Below, piece after piece: positions 25,387 to 34,580 of a DNA stretch of 64,000 nucleotides. The notes under the pieces are model-generated. The model saw only the letters and a list, made by a program, of their open reading frames with translations. It was not told where the DNA came from and searched no databases. Source of the DNA: Marinobacter alexandrii (GTDB lineage Bacteria; Bacteroidota; Bacteroidia; Cytophagales; Cyclobacteriaceae). Positions within the stretch are counted from its first letter, which is position 1, and each line of letters opens with the position of its first letter. Position numbers and translations under genes: made by a program. The stretch is from NCBI GenBank assembly GCA_039984955.1, contig JBDWTN010000007.1, positions 1,310,501 through 1,374,500 of the forward strand, in the 5' to 3' direction.

Positions 25387-25413
25387 AAAAGGGAGCGTTC
25401 GCTCCCTTTTTTT
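25387..25413 (+). terminator. Intrinsic terminator after the acidic lipoprotein
   Basis: Stem AAAAGGGAGCG / CGCTCCCTTTT with a 2-nt loop and a T-run, 20 nt after the stop. A homologous terminator recurs at 26993-27022. Confidence 0.85.
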
Positions 25414-25472
25414 GTTTCATGATGTTTCCAATTGAGCTAAATGAAGATTGTCCGAATCATCTTATCATCCGA

Positions 25473-25551
25473 CTAGCGTGGAAGTTACTTCCGTGCTTTT
25501 TCATTCAATGAATCTATTGTTAATCAGCTCTTTTCTCCAGAGCAATCTTGG
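25473..25551 (-). pseudogene. Remnant of a RAYT 3' end with REP hairpin
   Basis: CTAG followed by a GGAAGT-T-ACTTCC hairpin (25473-25496) and then about 55 nt that align with 25867-25945, the end of the RAYT fragment on the minus strand. The minus strand can still be read as ...RKELINNRFIE-stop, against GGKGLINIRFIE-stop in the better copy. This is the tail of a further transposase copy; everything upstream of it is gone. Confidence 0.6.
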
Positions 25552-25559
25552 GTTCATAA

Positions 25560-25590
25560 GACTTCCTATGTTTTCAAAACATAGGAAGTC
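25560..25590. repeat. Perfect 31-nt palindrome
   Basis: 15-bp perfect arms (GACTTCCTATGTTTT and its complement) around a single C. No T-run follows, so it is not a standard terminator. It lies inside the REP island. Confidence 0.8.
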
Positions 25591-25637
25591 TCTTTATAGT
25601 CACAAAACTTCAAAGTAAACCTCATGAGGGGTTTCAA

Positions 25638-25745
25638 TGCTATTAAGCTAAGCGACTTTCTTATTTGTCCTCTCCCTAACCCTCTCCATGAGAGGGATAT
25701 TTTGTTGCTTAACTTAATAGCACTGTGAGGGGGTTAGGGGGAGGT
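25638..25745. repeat. Two interleaved inverted repeats
   Basis: Arm A (GCTATTAAGCTAAGC, from about 25639) pairs with GCTTAACTTAATAGC (about 25708-25723). Arm B (CCTCTCCCTAACCCTC, from about 25667) pairs with GAGGGGGTTAGGGGGAGG (about 25728-25745). The order is A-B-A'-B', so the two stems cannot be nested. The CCCTAACCCTCTCC-type word is a widely spread intergenic repeat. Confidence 0.6.
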
Positions 25746-25791
25746 TTTTATCTTCAAGTAGTTGTGAAACTCAAACACCCCTATAAACCCC

Positions 25792-25816
25792 CTAGCGCAA
25801 GTATCCACTTGTGCTT
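25792..25816 (+). repeat. REP-like hairpin
   Basis: CTAG immediately followed by GCGCAAGT-type stem (CGCAAGT / ACTTGTG) with loop ATCC. Same CTA(G/A)-plus-stem layout as the hairpins next to the RAYT genes. Confidence 0.6.
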
Positions 25817-25866
25817 ATTATTACATAGGATAGCTATGACGTTTATGTAGACTTTTGGCACCCCTC

Positions 25867-25890
25867 CTAGCGCGGAAGTTACTTCCGTGC
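25867..25890 (+). repeat. REP-like hairpin adjoining RAYT fragment
   Basis: CTAG then a stem GCGGAAGT / ACTTCCGTGC with a one-base loop, 3 nt from the stop codon of the minus-strand RAYT fragment. Near-identical to the copy at 25473-25496. Confidence 0.7.
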
Positions 25891-25893
25891 CTT

Positions 25894-26241
25894 TCATTCA
25901 ATGAATCTAATATTAATCAGTCCTTTTCCGCCAGTATAATCTCTGGCGCTACTGTACAGATAATGCTCAGCCTCATCAACTAGTCCCTCGATAACTGGAT
26001 TTTGATGGATATAATCCAGTTTGTGTTGCATAACCTGATTGTCTGCCAATTCTATTGGGTGGTATTCGTTTTGCCAAAAACAATGTTTCTGATGTTTGTT
26101 GCTTTTCTCCGCTAGTTTTCTGAACATCCAAAGCATCCATTCACGTCTGCTTTCTTGCGTATTCTGTTGAATTTGCTTGATCAATGCCACAGAAGTATAT
26201 TTTTTAAAGTCTCTCACAATATTTTCAATGTTTTCTTCTCT
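25894..26241 (-). pseudogene. REP-associated tyrosine transposase (RAYT), C-terminal half only
   Basis: The minus strand reads about 115 residues (from near NIVRDFKKYTSVALI through KHCFWQNEYHPIEL and KLDYIHQNPVIEGLVDEAEHYLYSSARDY to RFIE). This is the second half of a Y1/IS200-like RAYT transposase. The N-terminal half with the HUH motif is missing: a TAG stop (26242-26244) and then another RAYT element replace it. RAYTs are usually single-copy and mobilise REP hairpins; this one cannot be active. A REP hairpin adjoins its 3' end. Confidence 0.8.
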
Positions 26242-26245
26242 CTAA

Positions 26246-26255
26246 CTAAGCGTAG
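26246..26255 (+). repeat. Left inverted repeat / half REP of second RAYT
   Basis: CTAAGCGTAG, the exact inverse of CTACGCTTAG at 26904-26913. It is the first half of the REP hairpin found after the second RAYT; the other half has diverged. The two copies bracket a 668-nt element. Confidence 0.6.
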
Positions 26256-26276
26256 TTTGTGAAATAGAAAAAATCA

Positions 26277-26301
26277 CTAGGCATAGGTTTTAGCTATGCC
26301 T
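26277..26301 (+). repeat. REP-like hairpin upstream of second RAYT
   Basis: CTAG overlapping a perfect 8-bp stem AGGCATAG / CTATGCCT with a 7-nt loop, 44 nt before the RAYT start. Shares the CTAG edge with the other hairpins but has a different stem. Confidence 0.65.
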
Positions 26302-26344
26302 ATCTATCTTGATGCTTTCATAGCAACATACATATATAACAAAA

Positions 26345-29187: not shown

Positions 29188-30039
29188 CTATTTGAGCCGC
29201 AAATATAAATTATCAATCAGTCTTATCCCTTCTACATAACCGGCAACACATATTGCAAGTTCATTTAATGATCGATAAGTGCTTACCGTCGATAAATCTG
29301 ACGGGTCTATCGCTTCAAGATATTCCAAATCAAAGCCCTCCGCCTCTTCATACATTTTTTTTGTAGCCTCCAAAAGCTCGTTTAAGTCTTTTCTAGAATC
29401 TATTCCACTTCCCATTTTTGATAGACCTTCATAAATAACCGTAGCATTTTTTAATCCCTGATCAGATAATTGCCTATTTCTTGAAGACATTGCAAGTCCT
29501 GTAGTTTCCCTTACTGTGTCCACACCAACAATTTGACATGCAAAACTTAGATCTTTACACATTCTTCTTATCAGAATAAATTGCTGCAAATCTTTTAATC
29601 CAAAATATGCCTTGGATGGAAGTGTCAAATGAAGCAGTTTACTTACTATAACTCCCACTCCGTCAAAATGATCCGGTCGATATTTTCCTTCGAGTATCTC
29701 AGAAAGATCTCCAAAATCAATCGTTACAATTTGCTTTGATGGATAGAGGTCTTTTTCACTGGGTGCGAAAACCAGATCTACTCCCTTTCCTTCAAGCAAT
29801 CGGACATCCTCTTCTAAAACTCGTGGATATTTTGCTAAATCTTTGGCACTATTAAACTGCAGTGGATTAACAAAAATACTAACGATGGTCCGATCATTTT
29901 CTTCGATCGAACGCTTGACAAGTGCCAGATGACCTTCATGCAAAGCTCCCATTGTAGGCACAAATCCAATGGTTTTGGATTCTTTCTTGTAAGAAGAAAC
30001 AATATCGGAAAGTTCTTTTTTGGCGCTCAGTACGCGCAT
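29188..30039 (-). CDS. panC: Pantothenate synthetase
   Basis: Condenses pantoate with beta-alanine using ATP. The 283 residues match the family. Motifs: VPTMGALHEGHLALVKRS (HIGH-like), FVNPLQFN, YFGLKDLQQFILIRRM and RETTGLAMSSRNRQLS (KMSKS-like). First gene of panC-panD; it diverges from the GT5-like gene across a 113-nt gap. Confidence 0.96.
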   Translation of the reverse strand: MRVLSAKKELSDIVSSYKKESKTIGFVPTMGALHEGHLALVKRSIEENDRTIVSIFVNPLQFNSAKDLAKYPRVLEEDVRLLEGKGVDLVFAPSEKDLYPSKQIVTIDFGDLSEILEGKYRPDHFDGVGVIVSKLLHLTLPSKAYFGLKDLQQFILIRRMCKDLSFACQIVGVDTVRETTGLAMSSRNRQLSDQGLKNATVIYEGLSKMGSGIDSRKDLNELLEATKKMYEEAEGFDLEYLEAIDPSDLSTVSTYRSLNELAICVAGYVEGIRLIDNLYLRLK

Positions 30040-30077
30040 AGCCTAGATCGATTTAATTCGCTAACTTATTGAAAGCG

Positions 30078-30108
30078 TTGATAATAAATCAAAAAAATGG
30101 TAAATTTG
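30078..30108 (+). promoter_or_regulatory. Promoter (-33 TTG, -7 TAAATTTG) of the GT5-like/glmS group
   Basis: TTG at 30078-30080 and TAAATTTG at 30101-30108 are 20 nt apart, the normal Bacteroidota spacing, and about 45 nt before the start codon. The clearest -33/-7 pair in the window. Confidence 0.6.
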
Positions 30109-30152
30109 TGCTCATTTTTAAAGTCCCATCAAGAATTTAATCAAAAGCAAGT

Positions 30153-30962
30153 ATGGAAAACATTAGAATCCTCTATGTGGCAAGCGAGATCAATCCATTT
30201 CTCAAGACCACAGAAGTAGCGGAATTTGTGAGAAGGCTACCCCAAGCTATGCAAGAAAGGGGTATGGAAATTAGGATTTTAGTTCCAAGATTCGGACTTA
30301 TAAACGAGCGAAAAAACCGCTTGCATGAAGTCGTAAGGTTATCAGGAATAAATATTGCCGTTGGTGATGAAGAAAAGCCTCTCGTAATTAAGGTGGCTTC
30401 TATTCCAAATGCAAAACTTCAAGTTTACTTCATTGATAATGAAGATTACTTCTACAGAAAATCAGTCTTTTTTGATAAAGAAGATAACTTCTTTGAAGAC
30501 AATGATGAAAGAGCAATATTCTTCTGTAAAGGCGTTCTAGAAACGGTGAAAAAATTGGGATGGTCTCCTGATATTATTCACTGCAATGATTGGATGACAA
30601 GTTTGATTCCTCTTTATACAAAGACGACTTACAAGAATGACCCTATTTATAAGGACTCTAAGACTGTTTTCACAATTTATAACAATCGTTTTTCACATAA
30701 ATTCGGTTCAGACTTGCTTGAAAAGGTAAAAATGATCGATATTGACGATCAAATGCTGGATCCATTAAAAACCGCAGATTATGATGGTTTTGTGAAGCTT
30801 GGCATGCAATATGCAGATGCAGTAATCAATGCTAAGGAAGAGAACACAGATAGCTTCGAAAAGCTAATCTCTGACTTAGGAGATAAGAAAACGGATACGA
30901 TAGAAAAGGATGAAAATTTTGAGGAGTCTTACTACAATTTATACAATGAACTTATTGGCTAA
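30153..30962 (+). CDS. Glycogen/starch-synthase-like protein, GT5 N-terminal domain only
   Basis: 269 residues resembling only the N-terminal (GT5) half of glycogen synthase: ILYVASEINPFLKTTEVAEFVRRLPQAM, then CNDWMTSLIPLYTKTTY. The GlgA K-x-G-G-L motif is degenerate (KTTEVAE) and the C-terminal GT1 half is absent, so synthase activity is doubtful. This short form next to a DUF4270 gene and glmS recurs in Bacteroidota, which argues against a recent truncation. It overlaps the DUF4270 start by 17 nt. Confidence 0.8.
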   Translation: MENIRILYVASEINPFLKTTEVAEFVRRLPQAMQERGMEIRILVPRFGLINERKNRLHEVVRLSGINIAVGDEEKPLVIKVASIPNAKLQVYFIDNEDYFYRKSVFFDKEDNFFEDNDERAIFFCKGVLETVKKLGWSPDIIHCNDWMTSLIPLYTKTTYKNDPIYKDSKTVFTIYNNRFSHKFGSDLLEKVKMIDIDDQMLDPLKTADYDGFVKLGMQYADAVINAKEENTDSFEKLISDLGDKKTDTIEKDENFEESYYNLYNELIG

Positions 30963-32334
30963 GAAGCTCTCAATTAAGAATATTATAAAACCGGGATTAA
31001 TGATTTTGATCCCGGTTTTTTTAAGCTGTGAAACAAATCAAGATCTTGGAATAAACTATGAGCTTGAATCAAATACTAATGTCAAATTTGTAGAATTTAC
31101 TCTGCCGGCTACCAATATTTTTCTTGATAGTCTCAGGACTGACGGTGAAAATAGAATTCTGGTTGGCACCTTTAATGACCCCTTGACCGGCTCTGTAAAC
31201 GCAGAAGGATATTTTCAATTTTTATACGAAGGAGGGCCTTTTCCAAGAAAAAGACAAACCTCAGGAGAACCAAACCCACCAGACACACTCCAACTAGACT
31301 CAATAATAGTCACATTTGAGTCCAACGCTGTAATCCCTCAAAGCGGATCTTCCTTCCAGGAATTTAAATTAGTAGAACTTCAAGACTCTCTTGAAAGCTC
31401 AGCAGTTTACCTATCAAACCTACAACAAATACCTGCAACAGAAATTGGAACATACTCCAGTACAATCAATACTTTGCTTGACACATTGTATAGAATTAAA
31501 TTAGAAGATGATTACGCTAATTCTTTTTTCGACTTAATAGGTGACATTACTGCAGATTCGACACAGTTGGTAATAACAACTATTTTTCAATCTCTTGGAG
31601 TAATTCCAGGAGCATCCTCAGAGAGTATTGCAGCTTTGGATTTAGCTAGCGACACCTCACGTTTGATTATGTACTCCTCTCCCGCAGACCCTGATGCTGA
31701 AGACACTACATACCTTACAACTTTTAGATTTACAGGTAAAAATTATTCCTACTTAGATAGAGATCGTACAGGTTCAAGTTTTGATGGTATAGTTGAGAAT
31801 GCGAACTTTGATTTAGCCTCTAACCAAACATTAATTGATCCTCTCTCAGGCATTAGTACTGCTTTTTCCATTACTCCACTTGAAGATTTTTTTAGAGAAA
31901 ACGGAAATATCCTTATCAACAATGCCACATTGGCTTTTGAATTTGAAAGTGAAAACGATAGAGATACTCTGGTCAGCTTTATAAACTTTCTCAGAAAAGA
32001 GGACAATAGCATTTTTGGCCCTGCCACAGTCACCAACTCATTTGCGAACATAGTCATGAACGATGCAGGATATCTGAATCTACAGACTGCCCCCGCGATA
32101 GGCACACTAAATGACAGTAAAGAAAATATTCTCATTAGTTCTACCCTTTTCTACCAACAGCTGTATAATCAATTTAATAAAGCCGACAGCTTGGCTTTTC
32201 TTATTCCAACATCAGGTGAGATTAGATCAATCAATGACCTTGTTACAATAAGTGCTATAGATGTCACATTAAATAGGACTATCTTGGCAGAAGACGGCAT
32301 TAAACTCAGGCTGTACTATACAGAGGTGAATTAA
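30946..32334 (+). CDS. DUF4270 family lipoprotein
   Basis: 462 residues from the ATG at 30946; an upstream in-frame ATG at 30910 is less likely. The signal peptide (MNLLAKKLSIKNIIKP to PVFLSC) ends in a lipobox. The body matches the Bacteroidota DUF4270 group (beta-rich, TLQLDSIIVTFES, TTFRFTGKNYSY, IRSINDLVTISAIDVTL). Role unknown; its conserved place before glmS suggests envelope work. The codons for the signal peptide contain a strong terminator-like hairpin (30987-31022). Start overlaps the previous gene by 17 nt. Confidence 0.85.
   Translation: MNLLAKKLSIKNIIKPGLMILIPVFLSCETNQDLGINYELESNTNVKFVEFTLPATNIFLDSLRTDGENRILVGTFNDPLTGSVNAEGYFQFLYEGGPFPRKRQTSGEPNPPDTLQLDSIIVTFESNAVIPQSGSSFQEFKLVELQDSLESSAVYLSNLQQIPATEIGTYSSTINTLLDTLYRIKLEDDYANSFFDLIGDITADSTQLVITTIFQSLGVIPGASSESIAALDLASDTSRLIMYSSPADPDAEDTTYLTTFRFTGKNYSYLDRDRTGSSFDGIVENANFDLASNQTLIDPLSGISTAFSITPLEDFFRENGNILINNATLAFEFESENDRDTLVSFINFLRKEDNSIFGPATVTNSFANIVMNDAGYLNLQTAPAIGTLNDSKENILISSTLFYQQLYNQFNKADSLAFLIPTSGEIRSINDLVTISAIDVTLNRTILAEDGIKLRLYYTEVN
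30987..31022 (+). terminator. Terminator-like hairpin inside the DUF4270 signal-peptide codons
   Basis: 11-bp perfect stem AAAACCGGGAT / ATCCCGGTTTT, 11-nt loop, then continuing T-run (31016-31022). It starts 25 nt after the stop of the GT5-like gene but lies within codons 14-26 of the next gene. Its strength equals the real terminators of the window. Confidence 0.75.
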
Positions 32335-32354
32335 CTTCAAAATAAATTTCAAAA

Positions 32355-34193
32355 ATGTGTGGAATAGTAGGATACCTTGGACCTAAACAAGCTTACCCAA
32401 TCATCATAAGTGGATTACAACGACTTGAATACAGGGGGTATGATAGCACAGGGGTCGCACTGATCAGTCAAGGCGACATTGACGTTCATAAAAAGCAAGG
32501 AAAAGTTCAGGATCTTAAAGACTATACGAAAGAAGAAGCCCTTGATGGAAATATTGGGATAGGTCACACAAGATGGGCAACACATGGAGAACCAAACGAT
32601 GTTAATGCACATCCTCACCTATCCAATAGTGGAGACTTAGCACTCATACATAATGGAATCATTGAGAATTACGGATCTCTTAAAGAGGATTTATCTCAAA
32701 AGGGCTATATTTTCAAAAGCGAAACTGACACAGAAGTCTTTGTCAATTTCATTGAGGATATTAAAAAAAATGAAAAGGTTTCATTAGAGGATGCCCTTAG
32801 GATTGCTCTTTCTAAAGTTATTGGAGCATATGCCATTGCTATCATTTCAAAAGACAACCCCAAAAAATTAATCGCGGCTAGAAAAGGTAGTCCCCTCGTA
32901 ATAGGGCTAGGAAAAGGTGAATTCTTCATAGCGTCTGATGCTACTCCGATCATTGAGCATACGAATGAAGTCATCTATCTAAAGGATGAAGAAATTGCTG
33001 TCATGGAGGGTGATTCCTTCACCATTACTGATTCGAAAGACATACCTCAGACTCCTTATGTACAAACACTTGATTTAGAGCTGGAGGCAATCGAAAAAGG
33101 AGGTTATGAACATTTCATGTTAAAAGAAATTTTCGAACAACCGCGCTCCATAGCTGATTGTATGCGAGGTAGACTTAATGCCGATACGGGAGAGCTGGTA
33201 TTAGGAGGTATTCGAAATTACTCCAACGCCTTAGTAAATGCCGAAAGAATCATCATCGTGGCATGTGGAACTTCATGGCACGCTGGCTTAGTTGCTGAAT
33301 ACCTCATCGAAGACCTGTGCAGAATCCCTGTTGAAGTTGAATATGCTTCAGAATTTCGATATAGAAACCCAGTTATCAAAGAAGGAGATATTCTACTAGC
33401 AATATCTCAATCTGGAGAAACTGCGGACACATTAGCTGCTATAGAGTTAGCCAAAAGTAAGGGTGCAATAGTTTTAGGTGTTGTAAATACTGTAGGATCA
33501 TCTATTTCAAGAATATCTCATGAAGGGGCTTATCTTCATGCTGGCCCTGAGATTGGTGTGGCTTCTACCAAAGCTTTTACTGCCCAGCTTACAGTATTAT
33601 ATATGATTGCCTTAAGAGCAGCAAATCGTAAGGGAACAATAACTGAAAACAAATATCAAGAGCTAATAAGAGAGTTGAGCCTAATTCCTGATAAGGTCGA
33701 AAAAGCTCTCAAATCAAGTGATAAGATTGAAGAGGTTTCTGATTTATTTAAGAATGCAAAAAACTTCTTATATCTAGGTCGAGGATATAATTTCCCTGTC
33801 GCCCTAGAGGGCGCCCTTAAGCTCAAAGAAATTTCATACATCCATGCTGAGGGGTATCCTGCGGCAGAAATGAAGCATGGCCCGATAGCGCTTATTGATG
33901 AAAATATGCCCGTTGTTGTCATTGCTACTCGTGATAGCAGTTACGATAAAATAGTTTCTAATATTCAGGAGGTAAAGGCTCGAAAAGGGATTGTAATTGC
34001 TATTGTAACAGAGGGTGATTCTTTAATTCCTGATATGGCTGATTTCACGATAGAAGTTCCATCGACGCATGAATCTTTAATGCCACTTTTATCAGTTGTT
34101 CCACTTCAATTGCTCAGCTACTATATCGCAGTACTTAGAGGTGCAAATGTGGATCAACCAAGAAATTTGGCAAAATCTGTTACCGTAGAATAA
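32355..34193 (+). CDS. glmS: Glutamine-fructose-6-phosphate aminotransferase (isomerizing)
   Basis: Makes glucosamine-6-phosphate, first step of UDP-GlcNAc synthesis for peptidoglycan and LPS. The 612 residues are the normal length. It starts MCGIVGYLGPK, where Cys2 is the glutaminase nucleophile; RLEYRGYDSTG and HTRWATHGEPNDVNAHPH follow. Two SIS domains carry VACGTSWHAGLVAEY, ISQSGETADT and LGRGYNFPVALEGALKLKEISY. No glmS ribozyme is evident in the 20-nt gap from the DUF4270 gene. It is co-transcribed with ridA. Confidence 0.97.
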   Translation: MCGIVGYLGPKQAYPIIISGLQRLEYRGYDSTGVALISQGDIDVHKKQGKVQDLKDYTKEEALDGNIGIGHTRWATHGEPNDVNAHPHLSNSGDLALIHNGIIENYGSLKEDLSQKGYIFKSETDTEVFVNFIEDIKKNEKVSLEDALRIALSKVIGAYAIAIISKDNPKKLIAARKGSPLVIGLGKGEFFIASDATPIIEHTNEVIYLKDEEIAVMEGDSFTITDSKDIPQTPYVQTLDLELEAIEKGGYEHFMLKEIFEQPRSIADCMRGRLNADTGELVLGGIRNYSNALVNAERIIIVACGTSWHAGLVAEYLIEDLCRIPVEVEYASEFRYRNPVIKEGDILLAISQSGETADTLAAIELAKSKGAIVLGVVNTVGSSISRISHEGAYLHAGPEIGVASTKAFTAQLTVLYMIALRAANRKGTITENKYQELIRELSLIPDKVEKALKSSDKIEEVSDLFKNAKNFLYLGRGYNFPVALEGALKLKEISYIHAEGYPAAEMKHGPIALIDENMPVVVIATRDSSYDKIVSNIQEVKARKGIVIAIVTEGDSLIPDMADFTIEVPSTHESLMPLLSVVPLQLLSYYIAVLRGANVDQPRNLAKSVTVE

Positions 34194-34202
34194 ATTGATA
34201 AT

Positions 34203-34580
34203 ATGAAAGAAATAATTAACTCACCTAAAGCTCCAGCTCCAATTGGGCCATACTCTCAAGCGGTAAAATCAGGAAATACCCTTTACGTATCTGGTCAAAT
34301 TCCAATTGATCAGGAAAGAGATGTGTTAATTGAGGGTTCAATTGAAGATGAGACCGAGCAAGTCATGAAAAACCTTAGTCATATTCTCAAAGAAGCTGGA
34401 TTGACTTTTGAAAATGTTTTAAAGTGCTCAATTTTTGTTTCTAACATGAAAGACTTTGCTCGCATCAACGCTGTATATGGACAATATTTCAAGGAAAACC
34501 CACCTGCTAGAGAAACTGTAGAAGTAAGCGGCCTACCAAAAGGGGTAAATGTTGAAATTTCTTGCATAGCTTCTTTCTAA
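34203..34580 (+). CDS. ridA: RidA family enamine/imine deaminase
   Basis: Hydrolyses reactive 2-aminoacrylate-type enamines formed by PLP enzymes. The 125 residues match. APIGPYSQAVKSGNTLYVSGQ and the C-terminal NPPARETVEVSGLPKGVNVEISCIA include the Arg used for carboxylate binding in active RidA proteins. It lies 9 nt downstream of glmS. Confidence 0.94.
   Translation: MKEIINSPKAPAPIGPYSQAVKSGNTLYVSGQIPIDQERDVLIEGSIEDETEQVMKNLSHILKEAGLTFENVLKCSIFVSNMKDFARINAVYGQYFKENPPARETVEVSGLPKGVNVEISCIASF

Follow-up and report, generated by a model that had tools for sequence, protein, structure and literature searches.

We consider it likely that a hairpin within the signal-peptide codons of a DUF4270 lipoprotein gene is the intrinsic terminator of the preceding gene, which encodes a GT5-like protein (GT5), and that it is used as an attenuator inside a GT5-DUF4270-glmS operon. 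The hairpin was analysed in the window, i.e. the whole 64-kb stretch of DNA under study, and at related loci of the same family, order and class. At the sequence level it is conserved, selected beyond the peptide, accompanied by a T-tract bias, placed behind the promoter signal of the operon and dependent on adjacency to GT5. Termination in vivo and a fraction of read-through, be it fixed or regulated, are what we infer from these properties.

Hairpin and gene order in the window

The first gene of the putative operon (30153..30962, + strand) encodes a protein of 269 aa in which Pfam recognizes only the Glyco_transf_5 catalytic domain. This near-universal half-GlgA, present in 195/197 sampled Bacteroidia genomes, matches only residues ~5-232 of the ~480-residue glycogen synthase models and scores far under their cut-offs. 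Its stop codon (30960-30962) is overlapped by the start of the DUF4270 lipoprotein gene (30946..32334, + strand; PF14092, E 2.3e-11), as the ATG at 30946 lies within the GT5 end. The automatic open reading frame starts at an earlier in-frame ATG, 30910; 30946 fits the offset common in the family, which 87 of 125 distinct family leaders share. The signal-peptide codons MNLLAKKLSIKNIIKPGLMILIPVFLS (30946..31026, + strand) precede the lipobox Cys (31027-31029). glmS, identified by its Pfam domains (32355..34193, + strand), follows 20 nt past the DUF4270 stop, the median gap in the family being 18 nt, and is predicted to depend on read-through.

The hairpin starts 25 nt past the GT5 stop, as the sequence-only reading had stated, and consists of the 5' arm AAAACCGGGATTAA (30987..31000, + strand), the loop TGATT (31001-31005) and the 3' arm TTGATCCCGGTTTT (31006..31019, + strand), which together form a stem of 14 pairs, 11 of them perfect. 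A run of seven T, TTTTTTT (31016..31022, + strand), overlaps the 3' arm, so that a stable stem-loop is directly followed by a T-run, as in an intrinsic terminator; both arms are supported by sequence, fold and a synonymous test, the T-run by sequence and by the T excess in family leaders. The RNA 3' end is predicted at ~31020-31023. With the start at 30946, hairpin and T-run correspond to DUF4270 codons 14-26, in agreement with the earlier assignment. The 11-pair stem described there (AAAACCGGGAT / ATCCCGGTTTT) is indeed perfect, but calling it GC-rich was generous, G-C pairs making up only 5 of the 11. The hairpin folds with -24.4 kcal/mol (z -3.9), a stability equalled by 0/200 dinucleotide shuffles, and the leader reaches z -5.3 relative to synonymous recodings of the same peptide. 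Among 387 crude ORF calls in 464 kb of the window's own genome (400 kb of stretches plus the 64-kb window) it is the strongest terminator-like hairpin embedded at an ORF start. A simple terminator scan missed it because the maximal stem takes in part of the T-run. The same scan lists a cluster of terminator-like hairpins at 25387-26302 of the window, with near-identical copies at ~25475 and ~25870 (AGCGTGGAAGTTACTTCCGTGC type). A search of 29900-34300 against Rfam returned no match at E up to 1, and hence neither a riboswitch nor a glmS ribozyme.

A putative operon promoter, read by eye, lies at 30078..30109 (+ strand), with TTG at 30078 and the -7 element TAAATTTG ending at ~30109. Upstream of GT5 the motif TAnnTTTG is present at 125/127 family loci, where a simple letter shuffle, the null used for the promoter motifs of the family loci, gives 13.3; the combination with TTG 17-23 nt upstream occurs before GT5 at 63/127 family loci (expected 1.4). 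Before DUF4270 and glmS the promoter motif shows a small excess in the family (3 vs 0.4 and 6 vs 0.9 expected, respectively), and a weak internal promoter may exist at either position. Strong enrichment of the Bacteroidota-type motif before GT5 only and the short gap between DUF4270 and glmS suggest that these genes form a single operon. Judged by motif and spacing, the hairpin is thus located between genes sharing one upstream promoter, the position expected for an operon-internal attenuator.

In the preferred explanation transcription would begin upstream of GT5, a share of the polymerases would halt at the hairpin, and the remainder would read through to give DUF4270 and glmS mRNA. Since any DUF4270 mRNA made from the GT5 promoter includes the hairpin, read-through would have to occur. 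The terminator would be written in signal-peptide codons because DUF4270 starts at or near the GT5 stop, and these codons would host both the stem (Gly-Leu/Pro ... Ala-Leu/Pro) and the T-run (Phe-Phe-Phe) with their function kept. The hairpin probably sets the output of the lipoprotein gene and of glmS. A transcription stop before DUF4270 and glmS, as proposed in the sequence-only reading, would probably happen some of the time, given a conserved terminator-like hairpin in one apparent operon. Partial termination at a fixed level is a simpler default assumption than regulated read-through.

Selection on the hairpin and its spread across the class

GT5 is present in 144/148 family genomes, whose loci were fetched. 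Behind the GT5 stop, many genera carry stems that differ in sequence and have arms complementary to each other. In the synonymous test the peptide was kept fixed and the codons were redrawn according to the usage of the same locus, z<-2 counting as a pass. By this measure 76/125 distinct family leaders are more stable than their synonymous recodings, comprising 70/87 leaders whose ATG has the conserved offset and 6/38 of the remainder; these and all other locus counts carry no phylogenetic correction, and related species are not independent. In 76 family leaders T after the stem is in excess of the synonymous expectation (378 vs 348.7, z 4.4), which fits the need of a terminator.

Two-sided compensatory changes were found in 9/11 pairs among 31 species and in 13/14 pairs among 11 species when the alignment was grouped by hairpin centre; a gapless alignment anchored on the Cys mixes two registers and yields misleading mismatches. 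Within the register of the window the count drops to 4/14 pairs, a consequence of the close kinship of its 9 species. More weight belongs to the synonymous test, since the rows analysed for compensatory changes were preselected for carrying the hairpin. Conservation of the stem against synonymous codon choice in relatives, the check called for in the sequence-only reading, has therefore been carried out; loss of the pairing in orthologues had been named as refuting, and the hairpin idea survived. The hairpin is under selection beyond the peptide sequence, as judged by these comparisons.

A terminator-like hairpin after GT5 recurs throughout the class at the level of sequence, with a steady place in the operon and a shifting position in the reading frame. 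With DUF4270 starts and lipoboxes assigned by rule rather than by a trained predictor, it lies inside the signal-peptide codons at 75/128 family, 17/62 order and 22/63 class loci, past the lipobox Cys and still in the ORF at 26 family, 15 order and 2 class loci, and either before the DUF4270 start or across it at 3 family, 2 order and 9 class loci. Carriers include Marinoscillum, Roseivirga, Reichenbachiella, Marivirga, Imperialibacter, Cesiribacter and Chryseolinea, among them the cultured Roseivirga thermotolerans, Marinoscillum sp. MHG1-6, Reichenbachiella faecimaris and Chryseolinea lacunae. In the family subgroup lacking the conserved ATG many hairpins are found at ~+91 to +139, past the Cys; in four loci (L081, L082, L091, L099) and their relatives CTG, CAG or CGG replaces this ATG before the GT5 stop. 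Class-wide, the hairpins in signal-peptide codons have a median z of ~-4, the loci being preselected for a hairpin. The leader-only test gave z<-2 at 18/50 order and 13/55 class loci, a lower rate because many of these loci carry the hairpin at another place or lack it. At 56 adjacent loci (20/128 in the family, 36/125 in order and class) no hairpin was detected within 200 nt at thresholds that undercount. Some of these are near misses, such as Fulvivirga imtechensis with a clear stem and a distant T-run, and in L036 and L024 the hairpin looks truly lost.

Dependence on GT5 and alternative explanations

Terminator-like hairpins, counted in 50-nt bins over 190 loci, are densest directly behind the GT5 stop: the first bin holds 0.46 per locus, the two that follow hold ~0.2 each, and bins in other parts of GT5 and DUF4270 hold ~0.02. 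For the comparison of leaders across groups a single 15-codon definition was used, by which 78/124 GT5-adjacent family DUF4270 leaders, 0/21 relocated DUF4270 leaders and 3/40 other lipoproteins of the window's own genome have z<-2. Two of these three lipoproteins were inspected and one has a weak T-tailed, terminator-like hairpin; for the lipoprotein at C7:23085 (z -5.2) the terminator-like reading was dropped, as it has no T-run. In relocated DUF4270 genes the signal peptide persists and the T-tailed hairpin of the leader is lost or at best marginal; 10/19 of them carry their own -7 motif (expected 1.7), as opposed to 17/229 adjacent ones (expected 11.6). Where GT5 has no adjacent DUF4270, the terminator is kept in 16/23 cases, usually starting ~25 nt past the stop. 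As relocated DUF4270 genes lose the terminator and lone GT5 genes mostly keep it, the hairpin appears to belong to the GT5 3' end and not to the signal peptide. Relocation was seen, for instance, in L083/L150, L079/L148 and L096, all of one family genus, in which DUF4270 is located outside the GT5-glmS operon, elsewhere in the genome. The window's own genome contains a second DUF4270 gene (L392, G000:C6:202634-203659) without a leader hairpin.

These controls bear directly on two of the alternative explanations. If a peptide of the GL....IPFFF type together with AT-rich codon bias yielded the hairpin with no selection on the RNA, one would expect T-rich signal-peptide codons and a hairpin compatible with the peptide, as observed; however, synonymous shuffles that keep both peptide and codon usage rarely match the native stability, compensatory changes are two-sided and the control leaders are flat, making such a codon accident very improbable. 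A link to Sec or SRP, with the hairpin sensing translation or export of the signal peptide, would account for its location in signal-peptide codons and had been raised in the sequence-only reading as a tie to Sec status. It is unsupported and in our view close to negligible, as relocated DUF4270 genes retain the signal peptide without the hairpin, only the 3/40 other lipoproteins pass, one of the two inspected being weakly T-tailed, and other lineages place the hairpin behind the Cys or between the two genes. That the main role of the hairpin is not termination but protection of the 3' end of GT5 mRNA, or formation of the 3' end of an sRNA, is unlikely: a stem outliving the rest of the mRNA would be conserved too, and intra-operonic sRNAs have been reported in B. 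thetaiotaomicron (PMC7366714), but the T-run after the stem exceeds the synonymous expectation and processing alone needs none.

A further explanation adds one regulated step to the operon-internal attenuator and is plausible in this sense: a ribosome ending GT5 or starting DUF4270 close behind the polymerase would block the stem, so that DUF4270 and glmS would need translation keeping pace with transcription. The intrinsic terminator of E. coli pyrBI (pyrL) is used in dependence on the closeness of ribosome and polymerase, an advancing ribosome inhibiting termination at the leader hairpin (PMC5021804), and the present hairpin would likewise be reachable by a translating ribosome, lying inside DUF4270 codons. 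Of the hairpins at adjacent loci 157 are embedded, 14 precede the start or extend across it, and 2 are unplaced. Where the ORF overlaps GT5, the embedded hairpin begins at a median distance of 6 nt from the GT5 stop, close enough for a ribosome at the stop to interfere, as opposed to 24.5 nt for terminators of GT5 genes that lack DUF4270; in the window this distance is 25 nt. In L189, L198, L200 and L249, whose ORFs start 66-108 nt past GT5, the hairpin is still in the signal peptide. On the other hand, at ~9 class loci the hairpin lies between GT5 and the DUF4270 start, where translation of the leader could not melt it, and these intergenic placements in the class speak against a need for embedding. 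The position may merely track hydrophobic codons (h-region) able to host a stem, and the distance from hairpin to ATG, 24 nt in both groups, carries little weight, being set in part by how start codons and categories were assigned. A trp-type antiterminator pairing with the 5' arm of the terminator gave no signal at 114 loci (mean duplex z 0.02, 5 below -2). Control by translation is on balance plausible but less likely than not. The same tentative standing applies to its class-wide form, in which a close ribosome would hold the terminator open for the lipoprotein and glmS and the RNA signal would dictate the signal peptide.

Comparison with known attenuators and implications

In pyrL a short leader peptide, with a pause region subject to regulation, precedes the terminator; here the terminator lies behind another gene, within the signal-peptide codons of a full-length gene. 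The proposed likeness is that closeness of the ribosome to RNA polymerase sets terminator use, a dependence that is only plausible in our case. At the E. coli ampC attenuator, which is the frd terminator, one hairpin ends the upstream genes and attenuates the downstream gene, which has its own promoter. The GT5 hairpin would similarly combine upstream terminator and downstream attenuator, but no promoter was detected by motif between GT5 and DUF4270. At the rplL-rpoB attenuator partial read-through determines how much of the downstream genes of an operon is made relative to the upstream ones, as proposed for the operon-internal partial terminator here; that attenuator is intergenic, in contrast to a terminator in coding sequence under dual selection. 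RNA 3' ends inside ORFs are known from E. coli, at least one of them bearing an intrinsic-terminator score (PMC7815308). The predicted RNA end likewise falls within coding sequence, and unlike those individual cases it recurs class-wide at one locus with shifting position. In the literature covered, mostly outside subscription journals, the element is undescribed and DUF4270 is named in one paper, in an expression table.

The locus presents an apparent intrinsic terminator that is selected inside protein-coding codons across a bacterial class; gene callers and terminator predictors which assume that coding sequence is free of terminators would miss it. Read-through would serve glmS, the gene of a cell-wall precursor enzyme, and the gene of DUF4270, a conserved lipoprotein. 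The locus thereby makes testable the coupling of transcription and translation in Bacteroidota, the control of glmS in this group, with no Rfam match in the window's locus and little separate promoter signal, and the limit to which an RNA signal may dictate a signal peptide.
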